Assembly (NCBI GenBank): GCA_031274595.1
Contig: JAISPX010000087.1
Location: forward strand, 1-32,124
Direction: 5' to 3'
From: Prevotellaceae bacterium
GTDB taxonomy: Bacteria > Bacteroidota > Bacteroidia > Bacteroidales > UBA932
Length of the DNA stretch: 32,124 bases
Shown: positions 4,024 to 17,319 of the stretch, in pieces
Position numbering within the stretch: the stretch's first letter is position 1
How the letters are laid out: the number at the start of each line of letters is the position of its first letter
Position numbers and translations under genes: made by a program
Notes under the pieces: generated by a model
Told to the model about the DNA's origin: nothing
Database searches by the model: none
Seen by the model: the letters and a program-made list of their open reading frames with translations, nothing else

Positions 4024-5643
4024 TTATTTAATTATTCCTGAACCTAAAATAAACTGTGTTGATTGTTGTGGATATAAATTCATACCTATAAGTAATGTAT
4101 CGAAAGCATCTGTACCATCTGTACGGTACTCTAATTTATCCTCTTCTGATTCTGCAAGTTTTTCGCCTGATTTATCCTTTGAAAAGCCATTGCTGTTAAC
4201 AACTACTCCTGTATGTCCTAATGCAAGCAGCAGGGCATCGTTATTATCTTTGTTGAATTGCGGAAATAAATACTTTTGACCTTTCAGGGCTTGGTCAATC
4301 ATAATGTATTTTTCACGATGTTTCAATGGGTTACCTATGTGTACGCGCTGAATAGTCCATCCATTTTTAAAAAATTGGTCGCAAATAACAGATGCGAAAT
4401 CATCATCATTTACAGCGTAATTACTTCCGAGAGCTGTGTTATCATAGTAATAAATTACTTCACGTGTTGGATGATAGATATAATATTCGCAGAAGTCATT
4501 AACAATCTCACGTAATTTGCGCTCATACTTCACATAGAAAGATTTAATAACTTTCATTTGGCTGCCTTGCTGTTGTGCCGCAACCAGCCAATTAATATTT
4601 GCGTTATAATCAAAAGCAATACATATAGGTTTGTTCGGGGCAATATCACCATCCTGACGGCAATCGGATTTTGCAATCTTTGATAAATTATATTCTAAAC
4701 TTTGTAAGTAGTTGTTATTAAAAGCAGTATAGGTATGTATATCTTCATTGTAGGAAGGATAAAAACCATCGAGTAAGCGAGTGATGCGCCTGCATAATAT
4801 TGAGGTTTGAAATACAAGCGGCGAAAGGTCGCGTTTCATTTGGCGGATATATTTTTCGCCCAGAATTTGAATGTTCTCTATTGTTGAAAATTCGCGATAA
4901 TAAGTAGCGATTGAACGGAATTCAGACAGTATTTGATTGTATTCACAAAGTACTCTATTGCGATGTTCGGTTTTAGGTTCTTGTTTAAGCCGCCAGATTT
5001 CGTACACTAATCCATGAATTGCATCAATCAGTTCGGTGTCCATGAATTCACGGTAACGGAAAAACCACGAGCCTTTTTTTGTTGTCGGCATATCTGAAAG
5101 TATAAGTAACCCATGATGCCACGGACAATTACCAAAATATTTTTTTATTGCTCCGTTTGCCGGCAGTGTTTCATCTTTCAGTTTTTCGTGGTCTATAAAT
5201 TTTGCTTCATCTATGGAAATATAATCAAGAGTTAATGAATTTGACGAACCTTTTACATCTTGAGAAATTATATGCTGAATTGCTCCATTATACCAACTTA
5301 TCACATAGTCATACCGCATAGGTTTGATTATTGGTTCGGCAAAGCCCATACTTTTTGATGGACGATGCCCGACTACATAATGAACATCGCGCACCCAACC
5401 CATTTCGCGCAAAGCCGCAAAAGTTGCCGGCAATGTTCTGGTTAATGCCTGTTGAAATGTAGCGGCGACAAATGCGCCTGCGCTTCGCGGCATGGCATGA
5501 ATATTGCGAAGCAAACGAGGCGCGGCAATTCCGTGCGATTTGCCAAACCTGCGCCCGGCAATAATCACTTCTGTATTTGCGCCTGTGTACATTGCCTCAA
5601 GTTGTGCATCGTTAAAATACAATAGTTTATTCGGCTCGCTCAT
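4024..5643 (-). CDS. terL: Phage terminase large subunit
   Basis: Walker A AGRRFGKSHG, Walker B YISIDEAKF, C-terminal nuclease-like acidic motifs (IAFDYNANINW, TDGTDAFDTLL). Confidence 0.9.
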   Translation of the reverse strand: MSEPNKLLYFNDAQLEAMYTGANTEVIIAGRRFGKSHGIAAPRLLRNIHAMPRSAGAFVAATFQQALTRTLPATFAALREMGWVRDVHYVVGHRPSKSMGFAEPIIKPMRYDYVISWYNGAIQHIISQDVKGSSNSLTLDYISIDEAKFIDHEKLKDETLPANGAIKKYFGNCPWHHGLLILSDMPTTKKGSWFFRYREFMDTELIDAIHGLVYEIWRLKQEPKTEHRNRVLCEYNQILSEFRSIATYYREFSTIENIQILGEKYIRQMKRDLSPLVFQTSILCRRITRLLDGFYPSYNEDIHTYTAFNNNYLQSLEYNLSKIAKSDCRQDGDIAPNKPICIAFDYNANINWLVAAQQQGSQMKVIKSFYVKYERKLREIVNDFCEYYIYHPTREVIYYYDNTALGSNYAVNDDDFASVICDQFFKNGWTIQRVHIGNPLKHREKYIMIDQALKGQKYLFPQFNKDNNDALLLALGHTGVVVNSNGFSKDKSGEKLAESEEDKLEYRTDGTDAFDTLLIGMNLYPQQSTQFILGSGIIK

Positions 5644-9193: not shown

Positions 9194-10402
9194 TTATTTT
9201 CTTTTTAAAGTATTTAATACATCATCGTAAATACTAACGGTTGGTGTTGAATTACCGTCGGTTTCCTTATTAACAGAAGCCGTGTTGTCTCCCGGCTTCT
9301 TTTCCATTTCTGCAATTTTTTGTTGCAGAGTGGCAATAGTAGCATCGCGTTCGGCGAGCGTAGCATTAACTTGCTGCAAATTTGTATTTGCCGTGGCAAG
9401 TTCGGTTTGCGCCCTGTTACCTGCTTCAAGGGCTTCGTTAATCGCTTCGAGTTGTTCCTCGTTAAACGATGTGTTTCCATCTTCGCAAGCAAGTTCGGTA
9501 ACTGCAAGTACAGCAAGCAAAGCGGCAATGTTTAATTGTCTTTCCATATTTATAGGATTATGATTTTTATTTTTATCGTGAAGTTGCCAAACAGCATCAA
9601 CTGCTGTTTGAAAATCTCCGATAGCGTCGATAAGTATTCCAACAACCTCCGAAGCAAAAAATGTTTTACCTTTCAAATGTTCGTCCTTTGCGTTCGGGCG
9701 GTTGGTTTTAATATCATTAATGAATTGCACGCAGGCAGGATTAAGTATTCTTTCTTTAACAAGTTTAAAGTCGCCTGTAAGAGCGGCTTCATACTCATCA
9801 TTTTTTTCTTCGCTTCCATCTGCATAAATACGCACTGATGTGTATCCGTCAGGCATTTTATTGAATTTCGGAAATCCTCCGAGTTCAATCATTACGCCTA
9901 TACATCCTACGTTATCGGTTTCGCGTGATGCTATTATTTGCTGGCAATAAGAACCAATATACATTGCAGCCGAACACATCAGACCATCAACCCAAGCAAC
10001 AACAGGTTTTTTGCATTTTTGAATTGCATCGGTCAATTCAGGAACGGCTGCCGTTTGACCGCCTCCGGATTCAAAAACTAAAATATGCCCTATAACAGAT
10101 TTATTTTTTTCGGCTGTTAGAAGTCGTTCTGCCATTAGGCGAGTTCCTATTGTTCCCGATTCGGTTGTATTTTTCATTAGTATGCCGCGAACAGGCTGCA
10201 CAAAAACACATTCTTCGTTTTCATTTACAACGTTAACGCCACTTCTATTAACACAAAAAGGCATATACTTTTCATCAGGATTCTCTCTTTCAAATTGTAA
10301 TCCGTTAAAAACGCCACGCAATACAGGTGCATAAATTTGCATCGTTATTGCATTAATAGCCCAACTTGATTCTATCAGTTCCTTTATAAATGAAAATTGC
10401 AT
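9194..10402 (-). CDS. S49/ClpP-like prohead protease with C-terminal coiled-coil (scaffold-like) domain
   Basis: HILVFESGGGQ..., KKPVVAWVDGLMCSAAMYIGSYCQQIIAS, DNVGCIGVM SppA-type motifs; C-terminal heptad-like region. Confidence 0.85.
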   Translation of the reverse strand: MQFSFIKELIESSWAINAITMQIYAPVLRGVFNGLQFERENPDEKYMPFCVNRSGVNVVNENEECVFVQPVRGILMKNTTESGTIGTRLMAERLLTAEKNKSVIGHILVFESGGGQTAAVPELTDAIQKCKKPVVAWVDGLMCSAAMYIGSYCQQIIASRETDNVGCIGVMIELGGFPKFNKMPDGYTSVRIYADGSEEKNDEYEAALTGDFKLVKERILNPACVQFINDIKTNRPNAKDEHLKGKTFFASEVVGILIDAIGDFQTAVDAVWQLHDKNKNHNPINMERQLNIAALLAVLAVTELACEDGNTSFNEEQLEAINEALEAGNRAQTELATANTNLQQVNATLAERDATIATLQQKIAEMEKKPGDNTASVNKETDGNSTPTVSIYDDVLNTLKRK

Positions 10403-10861: not shown

Positions 10862-11347
10862 TTAAAGTAAAAGGGACATCACAGGGACAAATCCTGACGA
10901 CTTTTTTTTATTTTTTTTCTGCCGATACCTGTAATAAGATTTCTTCAGAGATTCGTAATTTATATTTTCAAATGAAATATTGTAAGAGTAGCAGTAATCA
11001 TAAATTGCCTCTTTGATTTCTTTATTCATTCTCTGTAAAATATTGTCTAAATGAATGTACATGTGAGTTAAGAATATTTCATTAAGCATTATTGATATAT
11101 ATTTTTCTCCTTTTGGAGAGATGTAAAAATTATATTCCGTGTTTTTGTTTTCGTAATTTGGAAGTTCAAAAACAAATATATCTTTGCCTTCCGGTATAAT
11201 AACATTATGATTTTTCGGCGGCAAAGTCAGCCATGGCTTGATAAGTTTGCCGAAAGTATCGCCTGCCGAAACGTTATGTGTTCCGTGCAGGTAAGCACAC
11301 ACAACAAATTCCTGAAGCGCCGGTTTAAGATGTATGTAAGTTGTCAT
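10862..11347 (-). CDS. Hypothetical phage protein
   Basis: Intact 161-aa ORF between primase/iteron region and head genes. Confidence 0.65.
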   Translation of the reverse strand: MTTYIHLKPALQEFVVCAYLHGTHNVSAGDTFGKLIKPWLTLPPKNHNVIIPEGKDIFVFELPNYENKNTEYNFYISPKGEKYISIMLNEIFLTHMYIHLDNILQRMNKEIKEAIYDYCYSYNISFENINYESLKKSYYRYRQKKNKKKSSGFVPVMSLLL

Positions 11348-11419
11348 TTTTTATTCAAAATTAAAGTCTAATTTTTCGCGTTGAAAGGATTTTTTTTTAT
11401 TTTTTTGAAACGGCTTTTT

Positions 11420-11682
11420 TGCGTTCCAACGTTCCAACGTTCCAACAAAAAAATATAATTTATTGAAAATCAGATAAAAATAATTTTCGTTTAAAGTTGG
11501 AACAAAATAATTGCTGTTCCAACTAAAAAATAAGTAAAAAAATGGTGTTCCAACAAAACACAAGGTGTTCCAACAAGTACCAACAAACGGCTTTATATAT
11601 ATATTATTAATTTTCAATATATTATTATAGATAAACCTTGCTGAAAAGCGTTTTTGTTGGAACGTTGGAACGTTGGAACGCA
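11420..11682. repeat. Iteron-like array of GTTCCAAC / GTTGGAAC with 32-bp terminal inverted repeat; candidate replication origin
   Basis: Perfect copies at 11423, 11431, 11439, 11516, 11547, 11567 (+) and 11496, 11656, 11664, 11672 (-); degenerate GTACCAAC at 11577; outer arms TGCGTTCCAACGTTCCAACGTTCCAACAAAAA are perfect inverted copies. Confidence 0.85.
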
Positions 11683-11724
11683 TTTTTGCCGTAAATTTTT
11701 TTATCTGTTTATTTCCTTTTTTTA

Positions 11725-14700
11725 TCATTGGGGGGTAACAGGGGGAAAAATAGTTTCTTCAGTGTCATCATCTTTGTCAAGATTGATATTCGTCAATTCT
11801 TTTAACAATAAATAATCTAATGCTATTGCGCTTGTATTTTGCTGGTTTATGCGCTCTGTTTTTCTTACATAGTATTCCATTGCGCCCTTGTCTTCAACGT
11901 ATTCTTTCCATGAAAATCTTGTGCTTTTTACATTACCAATATATGCGGGATGGTCTTTCAGATACATTAATAAATTCTGCACTTTGAGAGTTTCGCTGCC
12001 TCTTATCTTTTGATACAGCGGATGAATTAGTCCAATTCTCAGGAACAAAACCCTTGTTTCTTTTGCAAGAATTTGTTCTACTGTCGTTTTTCTATCTATT
12101 TGTAAAACAAGTTTGTTTTGCCATTCAATTTTAAAATCTCGCCCGTATATTAGTCCATCATGCTGCTTATTTAGCAACACTTCAAGCGTTTCAAAGAATA
12201 CGCTTAATCTGTTAGTGCTGCTTATAGTTTCGCTTTGCGAAATAACTTTTGCTCGCGCTATATTGTAAAAATGTTTGTATGTAAACGGCAATCTAAGTTG
12301 TGGCACATATTGTTCCCATAGTTTGCAAATAGATAAAAATAATGATACAGTATTGAGTAACCGAGTTTGATGTATGTCGCCGTTTGCAGACAAATCTTGT
12401 TTCAATTCTTTATATACATTATTAAGCGTGTCGGCAAAATGTGCTTTAACCGTTTCTCTCTGTTTTAATATTTGAAGCAACACGCCGCTTAACCCATTCT
12501 TTTGTCTTGCTTTGAGATTATCAAATATTTCGCGTTCATGTTCTGTCCAGTCGTCTTTTTTAGGAACGTGCAATAAAATACAACGGTTGGCAAGCGAACC
12601 ATCGTCCCGCTCCGGCGCTTCCTGTCCAAGTAAAATTACAGCGCAATTTATTTTACTTATATCTAAATCTTTGCTTGTGGCATCTTTCTTTTTCTGCTTG
12701 CCTTCACCGTCATATACTGCTGCTTTAAGCCCTTGAAATTTTATATCGGAAATTTGATAATCGTTGTACTCTTCAAAAACCATAGCAACATCGCGGTAAC
12801 GTTCCAAACTGCTGAAAAATGCAGCATCTGTTCCTGAATTTAAGTTGAATAGTGGAGCATCGGGATGCATGAATATAGAACGTATGCTTACCGCAATTTG
12901 TGTTTTTCCTGACTCGGTAGGACCAATAAAAAACGGTGCGGTAAATAGCCTGTTTATAGAAAAAATATCACTGCGAAATGCAGACAATAACGCATAAAGC
13001 ACAGCCCAATATCCGTTATCGTTTTGTTTGTAAACTTCAACCATCAGTTGTACCCACGTGGCAAAATCGGTATCGTTATTTTCGCGAAATATAAACCACC
13101 TGTCGTTTCCATATTTGTCATTACTGCTGCGTAAATCTGAATATATTTTACTAAATGCCGGAGAATAATAAGTTTTATTGCCATGTTGCACAAGTCCGAG
13201 TTCATCGGTATATTTAATTTCTCCATCTGAATAAATTGCATTTGCAAAGGCGTAAAAATCTTCATCTTGCTGCCCGAACTCATTAATTTCCCAACACTTT
13301 GGAAATTGATTTGCAATACTTGCCAGTATTGCTTCATGATGGCTTGCTTTTCCTCTTGTAAAAACATTGCCACCCTCGTTGAACAATACTTTTTTAAATT
13401 GTCCGAAATCAACTAATTTTTCGGATACAAATTCGGTGTAAAAAGTCATTCCTGACTCAGCATTATTGATTCGGACAATACGCTTGTTTCGTGCTGCTTC
13501 TGTATCGAAAACGTGAAAAAGCGGTTCTATATAAAAATTCCCTACCATCTGCAAGCCGCCTTCTTGGGTGCGAAATACATAAAATATTTTTCTGCCTTTT
13601 TCATCTTGTGCAGGGAAATATCCATGTCGGTAGAAAAATTCTTTATCAACATATTCCGGAAGATTATTAATATCAAAATCGTAACGTTTACCGCCAACGT
13701 TGCTTGCTTCGCGTTTGAGTACACTTTTGGTTTTCTTTGCCGAAATGTGCGGCTTCAGTATTTTATTTAATGCTGCAGATGTAAGATTTAATCCGTCGCA
13801 AAATTTATTAAAACAAACTGTAAGCGTTGTTTCATCAAGTTTTGCAAGAATATTGCAACATTGGTCAATAAGGCGTTTGTGTATAATTGCATCTCCACTG
13901 TTTTCAGAAATAATAAAACTACAATACGATGAATATGCCGATAAAAAATTTTCAGGAACAGTATTTTCTTCGTCAAATGAAGATTTCTTTTGAACAATTA
14001 TATCAAACTTAAAATCTAACATCCAAATACAAATGTTTGATATTTGTGTATTTGCGCCCAAGTTATCAAGGAAATCAGTATCGTTGTTTACAAATTCAAT
14101 TCGCTGAGTAAGTCCGTTTAGTTCCTGTACATTGGCGTAAAGAATATTGCCTGAACTTAGTATTGTATTTTCTTTCCCGTTGGCGTGATATGTAACAAGC
14201 ATTTCCATTGTGTCAACAATGTAGCATTTGTTTTTTGACACGATTGATTCTTTGGCAAGTTCCAAACCAATCCAGCCATCATCTTTTTGCTCGATTGGCT
14301 TTACTGCCGATTTTTTGACAGCATCAATAATGCTTTTTTTATTGATGTCAAACATTTTTGCAACATTATTGATGTACATTTCGCGTGTTACGGATTCGGG
14401 AATAAGCGCAATGGTACGTTCAAGTTCTTTGACGGCTGCTGCTAACTGTATAGGATCATTTTGTCCGGCTTGCTTCATTACTTCGTATTTAAACGAAACA
14501 AAATCTTTCTTTTCTGACAGTAATTTTTTTACCAAATCTGCACCAACCGACAGCCCGAAACTGTCGGGATCATGTCCTGATGGAAGCGAAACAATGCGCA
14601 CATTCATACCTTCGGACAATAATAGTTCTGCGTTGCGGAATGTCGCTTTTGTTCCGGCAGAATCGCCATCGTAGCACATTAAAACATTTGATGTAAATCG

Positions 14701-15576
14701 GCGAATAAGCGCAATTTGTTCTTTTGTCAACGCTGTTCCGCAGGCGGCAACTGAGTTTGTAAACCCAAGTTCGTGAAATCGCATTACATCAAAGTTGCCT
14801 TCAAGCAAAATACATTCATCCTCTTTTATTATTGATTTTTTTGCAAGATGAATACCGTACAAACATTTGCCTTTTGAAAATAATTCGGAATCTCTGCTGT
14901 TAAGATATTTTACTTGCTCATTTCCTGAAATTGATCTTCCTGTAAAACCCACAACATTACCTATAATGTCGCAGATAGGAAATATAATCCTGTTGCGAAA
15001 ATAATCGTAAGTTCCTTTATCGCCTTCGCCCATGAGCGAGGCATCTGCTAAAATATCCGATTTGAAGCCGGCTTTTTGAGCCGACTCGCTTAACTTATGC
15101 CAGTCATCTGATGCATAACCAAGCCTGAACATTTGTATCGTTGAGGGTTTAAATTTTCTTTGAAGTAAATAAGTATGATAAGGTTTGTCGTGGTTTTCCC
15201 AAAAAAATATTTCCGCAAATCGTGTTACAACTTTGAGGCTTTCGCGCCGGGCATATTTCGCCTGTTCTTCGGCTGATGGCTTATAATCATCCTCAATTAC
15301 TATACTAGCCCGAACAGCAAGTAATTTTACCGCTTCAGGAAAAGATACCTGTTCCTGTTCCTGAATAAACTTAATCACATTACCGGCACAGCCACAACCA
15401 AAACATTTAAAAATCCCTTTCGCCGGCGAAACAACAAAAGATGCAGTTTTTTCATCATGAAAAGGACAACAACCAACATAATTAGCGCCTTGTTTCCTTA
15501 ATTTTACATAGTCGCCTACAATGTCTGCAATATTTATCTTTGATAATATTTTATCTATTGTTTCCTGTTGTATCAT
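11725..15576 (-). CDS. DnaG-type primase (CHC2 zinc finger + TOPRIM) fused to a C-terminal P-loop ATPase/helicase-like domain
   Basis: CPFHDEKTASFVVSPAKGIFKCFGCGCAGN zinc finger; CILLEGNFDVMRFHELGFTNSVAACGTALT and MCYDGDSAGTKA TOPRIM; GPTESGKTQIAVSI Walker A and MVFEEYND acidic motif. Confidence 0.88.
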   Translation of the reverse strand: MIQQETIDKILSKINIADIVGDYVKLRKQGANYVGCCPFHDEKTASFVVSPAKGIFKCFGCGCAGNVIKFIQEQEQVSFPEAVKLLAVRASIVIEDDYKPSAEEQAKYARRESLKVVTRFAEIFFWENHDKPYHTYLLQRKFKPSTIQMFRLGYASDDWHKLSESAQKAGFKSDILADASLMGEGDKGTYDYFRNRIIFPICDIIGNVVGFTGRSISGNEQVKYLNSRDSELFSKGKCLYGIHLAKKSIIKEDECILLEGNFDVMRFHELGFTNSVAACGTALTKEQIALIRRFTSNVLMCYDGDSAGTKATFRNAELLLSEGMNVRIVSLPSGHDPDSFGLSVGADLVKKLLSEKKDFVSFKYEVMKQAGQNDPIQLAAAVKELERTIALIPESVTREMYINNVAKMFDINKKSIIDAVKKSAVKPIEQKDDGWIGLELAKESIVSKNKCYIVDTMEMLVTYHANGKENTILSSGNILYANVQELNGLTQRIEFVNNDTDFLDNLGANTQISNICIWMLDFKFDIIVQKKSSFDEENTVPENFLSAYSSYCSFIISENSGDAIIHKRLIDQCCNILAKLDETTLTVCFNKFCDGLNLTSAALNKILKPHISAKKTKSVLKREASNVGGKRYDFDINNLPEYVDKEFFYRHGYFPAQDEKGRKIFYVFRTQEGGLQMVGNFYIEPLFHVFDTEAARNKRIVRINNAESGMTFYTEFVSEKLVDFGQFKKVLFNEGGNVFTRGKASHHEAILASIANQFPKCWEINEFGQQDEDFYAFANAIYSDGEIKYTDELGLVQHGNKTYYSPAFSKIYSDLRSSNDKYGNDRWFIFRENNDTDFATWVQLMVEVYKQNDNGYWAVLYALLSAFRSDIFSINRLFTAPFFIGPTESGKTQIAVSIRSIFMHPDAPLFNLNSGTDAAFFSSLERYRDVAMVFEEYNDYQISDIKFQGLKAAVYDGEGKQKKKDATSKDLDISKINCAVILLGQEAPERDDGSLANRCILLHVPKKDDWTEHEREIFDNLKARQKNGLSGVLLQILKQRETVKAHFADTLNNVYKELKQDLSANGDIHQTRLLNTVSLFLSICKLWEQYVPQLRLPFTYKHFYNIARAKVISQSETISSTNRLSVFFETLEVLLNKQHDGLIYGRDFKIEWQNKLVLQIDRKTTVEQILAKETRVLFLRIGLIHPLYQKIRGSETLKVQNLLMYLKDHPAYIGNVKSTRFSWKEYVEDKGAMEYYVRKTERINQQNTSAIALDYLLLKELTNINLDKDDDTEETIFPPVTPQ

Positions 15577-15847: not shown

Positions 15848-16426
15848 TTATAATTTTTCAATTAATTTAAAAACTTCGTCTGTCAGTACACTTCGGCAGA
15901 TGTCGGCTGTTTCTTGTTGGTTTTTTGTTTTAGCATAAGCAGCATAAGCAGCAGCAGCAGCAGCATTAGCATTAGCATAAGCATTAGCAGCAGCAGCAGC
16001 AGCATAAGCATTAGCATAAGCATTAGCAGCAGCAGCAGCAGCATAAGCAGCATTAGCAGCAGCATCAGCATAAGCAGCATAAGCAGCATAAGCAGCAGCA
16101 GCAGCAGCATTAGCATAAGCAGCATAAGCAGCATAAGCAGCATCAGCAAACTCATTTAATTTATCTCTGCTGATTTTGCCATCGGCATAATCCAGAGCGG
16201 CATCAATGGCTGCCGTGCAGCGCTCATCTTTCATTAAGTGCCTTACAGTAGCGCACATCGCTTTTGCTCGTGTTAAAATCCTGTCGTCAACTCCTAATTT
16301 TGCCGCTATCCACAGCATCCAATCACCTCTTGGGCAGTCGTTCCACGCTTGCTCAAAACTTTCTTTTTCTTTGTAATAATTCAAACCTTCGCTGCACGGA
16401 TTGAATTTTGAAATGTCTATTTTCAT
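15848..16426 (-). CDS. Imm-5-like/putative immunity-type protein with Ala-Tyr/Asn/Asp repeat
   Basis: CPRGDWMLWIAAKLG...TVRHLMKDERCTAAIDAALDYADGKISRDKL followed by (A)nY/N/D repeats and NQQETADICRSVL tail. Confidence 0.65.
   Translation of the reverse strand: MKIDISKFNPCSEGLNYYKEKESFEQAWNDCPRGDWMLWIAAKLGVDDRILTRAKAMCATVRHLMKDERCTAAIDAALDYADGKISRDKLNEFADAAYAAYAAYANAAAAAAYAAYAAYADAAANAAYAAAAAANAYANAYAAAAAANAYANANAAAAAAYAAYAKTKNQQETADICRSVLTDEVFKLIEKL
15937..16149. repeat. Trinucleotide-based repeat (minus-strand codons GCT and NAT) inside CDS
   Basis: agcagcataagcagcattagcagcatcagc...; nearly pure GCT with TAT/AAT/GAT interspersed. Confidence 0.9.
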
Positions 16427-16862: not shown

Positions 16863-17062
16863 TTTACCGCCTCATTCAACATCTCTATTATTGCCATTAT
16901 TTCACGTTTATTGACGTCAATATAAACTTCATCAGGAAAGTCTTCCATATGTACTTCCAACTGTATCTGGCTGCAATTTCTTTGCACTCGGAACTGAAAC
17001 GTTCCCCTTGCGTCTTCTGACTGTAATATCAATTGATATTGGGTATCTGCTCTTTTCATCAC
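16859..17062 (-). CDS. Hypothetical phage early protein
   Basis: 67 aa, coupled to neighbours. Confidence 0.55.
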   Translation of the reverse strand: MMKRADTQYQLILQSEDARGTFQFRVQRNCSQIQLEVHMEDFPDEVYIDVNKREIMAIIEMLNEAVK

Positions 17063-17319
17063 TCAAATAATTTTAGTTGCCGTTCAAAAGTTTCTGCCGT
17101 GAATGTTACGTTCAGCGTATGGCACAATCGTTTCAGTTCGTCGATTGTGATTGAGATTTCGCCGCGCACGAGTTTTGCCCAGCGCCGGCAGTTGATTCCC
17201 GTTGCGATATAAAACCGCTTTGTCGGTTTAAAATTCTCGTGCGAACCCTGTATGCTGTCAAGCAAATTAAACAGAGCATCGCGCGAAACGATTGCGTTGT
17301 TATTTTCTTCTTTTTTCAT
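17059..17319 (-). CDS. HTH (XRE-like) small protein
   Basis: FYIATGINCRRWAKLVRGEISITIDELKRLCHTLNVTF helix-turn-helix pattern. Confidence 0.6.
   Translation of the reverse strand: MKKEENNNAIVSRDALFNLLDSIQGSHENFKPTKRFYIATGINCRRWAKLVRGEISITIDELKRLCHTLNVTFTAETFERQLKLFE

Follow-up and report, generated by a model that had tools for sequence, protein, structure and literature searches.

A candidate phage replication origin of inverted iterons downstream of a primase-helicase gene in a Bacteroidales prophage

Introduction

Short repeats gathered directly behind a primase gene raise the question of what they do there: whether DNA replication begins at them, whether they serve some other process of the element, or whether they are simply repeats. 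Such a locus is present in the window, i.e., the whole stretch of 32,124 nucleotides of Prevotellaceae DNA that was analysed, and a first-pass annotation had considered for it a replication origin, an initiator-binding array and a mobile repeat. An origin or initiator-binding array is the best-supported reading, as the array and the primase-helicase travel together in relatives. It is highly likely that a tailed prophage uses the array as its replication origin, with the adjoining primase-helicase probably binding the repeat unit, GTTCCAAC, via its C-terminal domain.

Results

Anatomy of the array and its place in the prophage

The window contains a prophage at its left, with the main genes on the minus strand, and host-like genes rightward from about 19.6 kb. 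Along the direction of transcription, the HTH gene is followed by the primase-ATPase, the array, two small genes and the head maturation protease, and then by the probable capsid gene and the terminase large subunit (Table 1). Upstream of the primase, the ORF at 15848-16426 encodes an alanine/tyrosine-rich low-complexity product (AAYAAYADAA...) and is made of short GC-rich tandem repeats (AGCAGCA, GCATAAGC).

Table 1. Coordinates of the array, the primase-helicase and the neighbouring prophage genes in the window
Feature	Position	Strand	Basis or remark
HTH gene	17059-17319		
Primase-helicase fusion, 1283 aa, proposed initiator	11725-15576	-	
DnaG-type primase part, ~aa 1-416	14329-15576	-	Pfam: CHC2 zinc ribbon, DNAG_N, Toprim, DnaB_bind
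AAA+ helicase part, ~aa 640-1110, Cch/DUF927-like	12247-13659	-	profile match to PDB 5dgk
C-terminal domain, ~aa 1114-1274, proposed iteron reader	11755-12237	-	varies between coresident elements with different iterons
Iteron array, candidate phage replication origin	11420-11682		repeat mapping and same-position arrays in relatives
Primase-proximal arm	11651-11682	-	3 head-to-tail GTTCCAAC, 8-bp period; other half of 32-bp inverted repeat
AT-rich stretch, proposed unwinding element	~11594-11631		adjoins primase-proximal arm
Exact GTTCCAAC, + strand	11423, 11431, 11439, 11516, 11547, 11567	+	
Exact GTTCCAAC, - strand	11496, 11656, 11664, 11672	-	
Interior sites (11496-11584)	11496-11503 (-), 11516-11523 (+), 11547-11554 (+), 11567-11574 (+)		
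Degenerate interior copy GTACCAAC	11577-11584	+	
Primase-distal arm	11420-11451	+	3 head-to-tail GTTCCAAC; half of 32-bp inverted repeat
First gene past array, start of late (head) module	10862-11347	-	
Head maturation protease	9194-10402		
Probable capsid gene	8210-9193		gene order alone
Terminase large subunit	4024-5643		

The array fills part of a 377-bp gap between the primase stop codon (11725-11727) and the next gene, and it begins about 40 bp past that stop, in agreement with the annotated position directly downstream of the primase-ATPase. Site mapping likewise reproduced the ten perfect copies of the 8-mer (span 11423-11679) and the single degenerate one, the three tandem copies at each end in opposite orientations, the AT-rich interior and the perfect inverted repeat, whose arms are 32 nt each, 100% complementary and 199 bp apart. 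All ten exact copies in the window lie inside the array, while shuffled versions of the window contained on average 0.73 copies and 4 at most. When the locus is cut into windows of equal size, the one with the array also holds the peak 40-bp AT value. The triple tandem of GTTCCAAC has no second place in the 2.46-Mb genome and is absent from 397 other genomes of the phylum, and a search of the literature for the repeat word brought up nothing but primers and markers with no connection to it. A 125-aa ORF crossing the array (11351-11728) was considered and is not a likely gene, being merely a reading frame through the repeats.

The primase-helicase

When a profile built from 51 sequences of the helicase half was compared with solved structures, the one good match was to the helicase Cch from SCCmec (5dgk, E=4.6e-8). 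The Walker A motif of the primase-helicase reads GPTESGKT. DUF927 is matched by 13 of these 51 family members, and the model of the P4-family primase C-terminus by only one, which indicates that the helicase type differs from that of P4. Single-sequence structure prediction of the helicase half, including the C-terminal domain, gave no usable structure (pLDDT 34).

Arrays in close relatives and in other phages

Homologs of the primase-helicase were found in the genomes G405 (71%), G421 (56%) and G404 (62%, a C-terminal fragment); the C-terminal half of the primase is 77% and 64% identical in the first two relatives, with the third represented by that 62% fragment. In all three, an array lies between the primase-helicase stop codon and the next gene, and this next gene is itself homologous by sequence to the gene after the array in the window. 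The unit is GTTCCAAC in G421 and G404, while in G405 it is CCCAACAA, altered in nearly every copy, and the G405 array nevertheless keeps the two inverted triple arms and the AT-rich tract. In G404 (L036:7000-7420, contig C25), the array and the last ~120 aa of the primase are fused directly to an HTH-like gene (cf. 17059-17319); either the body of the primase has been deleted here, or the assembly has joined the two pieces.

Phages of Porphyromonas gingivalis, Cellulophaga, Flavobacterium and Microcystis also encode homologs of the helicase half. In each of the 15 P. gingivalis phages examined, an array of 296-389 bp separates the replication module from the head module. It lies 1.1-3.5 kb past the primase stop, and cargo genes occupy the interval; the core is mainly CCAACA in 11 phages and mainly CCTACA in 4 (CCTAC at 13-14 of 14 sites). 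On the late side, two hypothetical genes, the prohead protease and the capsid follow, and a related P. gingivalis phage encodes a full head-tail set. In Flavobacterium phage laban, the primase is followed by a gap that holds a TCTCAACA array. Tiny hypothetical ORFs annotated over the P. gingivalis phage arrays (e.g., L041:8966-9331) are probably not genes. No description of the origins of P. gingivalis and related phages was found in the literature searched, and the main text of the P. gingivalis phage paper mentions neither primase, origin nor iteron. The check by GC skew suggested in the first-pass annotation was uninformative on the origin, as in a P. gingivalis phage the cumulative curve largely tracks the orientation of the genes.

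Survey across the order

A helicase homolog is carried by 34 of the 394 genomes of the same order, and a motif-blind scan showed that an array is the main repeat cluster near most of these helicases, with words such as TTCCACA, GTGCCAA, CGGTACA, CGTCACA, CGGAACA, CAACTAC, ACCTAAC, CAAGACA and GCCTACA. Tandem copies recur every 7-10 bp across arrays (usually every 8 bp in the close group), an AT-rich tract stands in the same place as that of the window in many relatives, and in most cases the peak local AT content of the locus is inside the array. With an array defined as at least 5 copies of one 7-mer no more than 600 bp from the stop, arrays were found at 27 of 52 homolog loci vs. 4 of 361 control windows from the same loci (Fisher p=7e-24); the loci being related, these counts are not fully independent. 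None of 23 housekeeping dnaG genes had such an array. At some homologous loci the array is located beyond 600 bp from the stop, and about a dozen more distant homologs have no array by the detector used. Arrays also follow the helicase ORFs L088, L089 and L099, near which no DnaG-type primase could be detected, so it is the helicase half that the array goes with.

The first-pass annotation had also stated that similar runs occur in intergenic DNA of Bacteroidetes, which is only partly right. One-directional 8-bp tandems do occur elsewhere, but in a reverse search with the CCAAC triple pattern, which matched 31 of 394 genomes, 5 of the 30 loci examined carried three or more sites per orientation, and every one of these 5 belongs to a helicase-bearing element; a sixth helicase locus had 7 and 2 sites per orientation, while the other 24 were one-directional, or nearly so, with no helicase match. 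One genome (G585, contigs C1, C6 and C12; L138 and others) has several dispersed one-directional 8-bp CCAACTGT tandem arrays, with no helicase match at the locus checked.

Possible co-diversification of the iteron and the C-terminal domain

The repeat word is lineage-specific and is altered in nearly all copies together. In four genomes that have at least two closely related array-bearing elements, the iterons differ within each genome: GTCCAACA and GGTTCGC in G625; CGGTACA, CGTCACA and CGGAACA in G738; CGGTACA and CGGAACA in G454; TCCAACA and TCCTACA in G712. Between these coresident elements the ATPase core is 79-91% identical, whereas the C-terminal domain is only 51-63% identical; conversely, elements of different genomes with the same iteron (L091/L092, L038/L098) are 93-96% identical in the C-terminal region. 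This coresident-pair pattern fits a C-terminal domain that would read the iteron but is not proof of it, and the C-terminal region is more variable in general. The window and L034 have one unit in common at a C-terminal identity of 43%, so C-terminal identity is no simple predictor of the unit. When iteron similarity was correlated with the identity of four protein regions, rho was 0.21-0.29 and the C-terminal domain was not singled out; the paralog pairs, rather than this correlation, are the informative comparison for iteron recognition.

Discussion

Alternatives to an origin

As the array stands on the transcribed strand where the replication module gives way to the head module, it could act in early/late control of transcription, i.e., as a repressor or activator array, or as a terminator timing the head genes. 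It seems unlikely, since a promoter and terminator scan of the region gave nothing above chance, inverted triple arms around AT-rich DNA would not be expected there, and the array is tied to the helicase and to no regulator, still following the helicase ORF in L088, L089 and L099. That the array serves partition as a parS-like centromere, or packaging as a pac/cos site, is very improbable: short-repeat arrays also serve partition systems, and one P. gingivalis phage has an annotated ParB-like gene upstream of the primase, but in the remaining annotated phages no partition gene was seen beside the arrays, and ~6 kb or more lies between the array and the gene for the large terminase subunit.

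One-directional 8-bp CCAAC tandem repeats elsewhere in these genomes might suggest that the array is a functionless mobile or simple tandem repeat, which we find scarcely credible, because it is present at a single genomic locus, and not as the multiple dispersed copies of a MITE-like element, because its position is fixed in homologous phages, and because its units are lineage-specific and change in concert; moreover, the inverted layout is confined to helicase loci among the CCAAC matches examined.

The proposed origin and proposed initiator

We read the array as an origin because arrays of the same architecture are found downstream of homologous primase-helicases in relatives; it is very probably where phage DNA replication starts, and it is probably recognised by the C-terminal end of the neighbouring protein. 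The primase-helicase, encoded immediately upstream on the same strand, would bind the GTTCCAAC iterons through its C-terminal domain, and two oppositely facing helicase assemblies, presumably hexamers, would load, one at each inverted triple-site arm, open the AT-rich tract between the arms and unwind outwards from the array, with the DnaG-type domain of the same protein priming synthesis.

The closest parallel is the rep-ori of PICI/SaPI elements such as SaPIbov1, in which a self-loading AAA+ helicase initiator has its origin 3' of its own gene (PMC6092414, PMC7581432). PICI origins are described as an AT-rich region 3' of rep with a set of iterons on either side, a layout said to be shared by no other known bacterial replicon (PMC6092414); the array of the window has this layout, and those of its relatives are similar. 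SaPI Rep reads the iterons directly downstream of its own gene via its C-terminal domain, and Cch, a DUF927 protein, is a relative of SaPIbov1 Rep (PMC7581432); the helicase of the window, DUF927/Cch-related, is linked to SaPI Rep by way of Cch. Unlike the PICI satellites, which depend on structural genes of a helper, the window type is found in full tailed phages with their own head genes (here head protease and terminase), and the iterons have a 7-10-bp period, triple-site arms and extra interior sites. The primases of SaPIbov1 and SaPI5 are of AEP type (PMC7581432), whereas here a bacterial DnaG-type primase is fused to the helicase. On these likenesses, we conclude that the array and primase-helicase would be a PICI/SaPI-like rep-ori variant, in full tailed phages and with a DnaG-type primase.

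Other systems are similar in part. SCCmec Cch is the sole significant solved-structure relative of the helicase half, but SCCmec is not a phage and the 603-residue Cch chain has no DnaG-type primase part; the short iterons that Cch2 binds with its C-terminal domain lie downstream of the cch2 gene (PMC7581432), but Cch2 comes from a different helicase family and its iterons are three in number and 5 nt long. The alpha protein of phage P4 likewise combines primase and helicase in one initiator and has a cognate origin on which it acts (PMC7145576, PMC6092414), but its helicase is of a different type; this comparison is of the proteins. The crenarchaeal plasmid pRN1 has its origin immediately 3' of the primase-helicase gene (PMC4234260), but this origin is a 100-nt stem-loop with no iterons, and the primase is archaeo-eukaryotic.

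The findings thus indicate that a rep-ori organisation also exists outside the PICIs, in full tailed phages that infect other bacteria and use a different primase, and for the phages of P. gingivalis and their relatives an origin position can now be proposed. With so many variants of the unit, some of them paired within one genome, the initiator-iteron recognition rule becomes directly testable, and these variants could supply orthogonal replicons for Bacteroidales genetics. To hypothesise further, we would give about even chances to the idea that the phages of this bacterial group carry many related primase-helicases, each matched to its own origin, and that a change in the C-terminal domain goes with a change in every iteron of the array. 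If true, the iteron type would serve as an incompatibility group, so that a single cell could harbour several related prophages, and each cognate pair would be a ready-made orthogonal replicon.

Further motifs in the arrays

Exact IHF consensus sites (WATCAANNNNTTR) were found in 13 of 36 arrays (e.g., L033, L040, L047) vs. 1.8 expected from shuffles, an enrichment of ~7-fold that is only suggestive because the loci are related. A TTGATTATC-like box is present in 12 of the 36 arrays, where about 4 would be expected.
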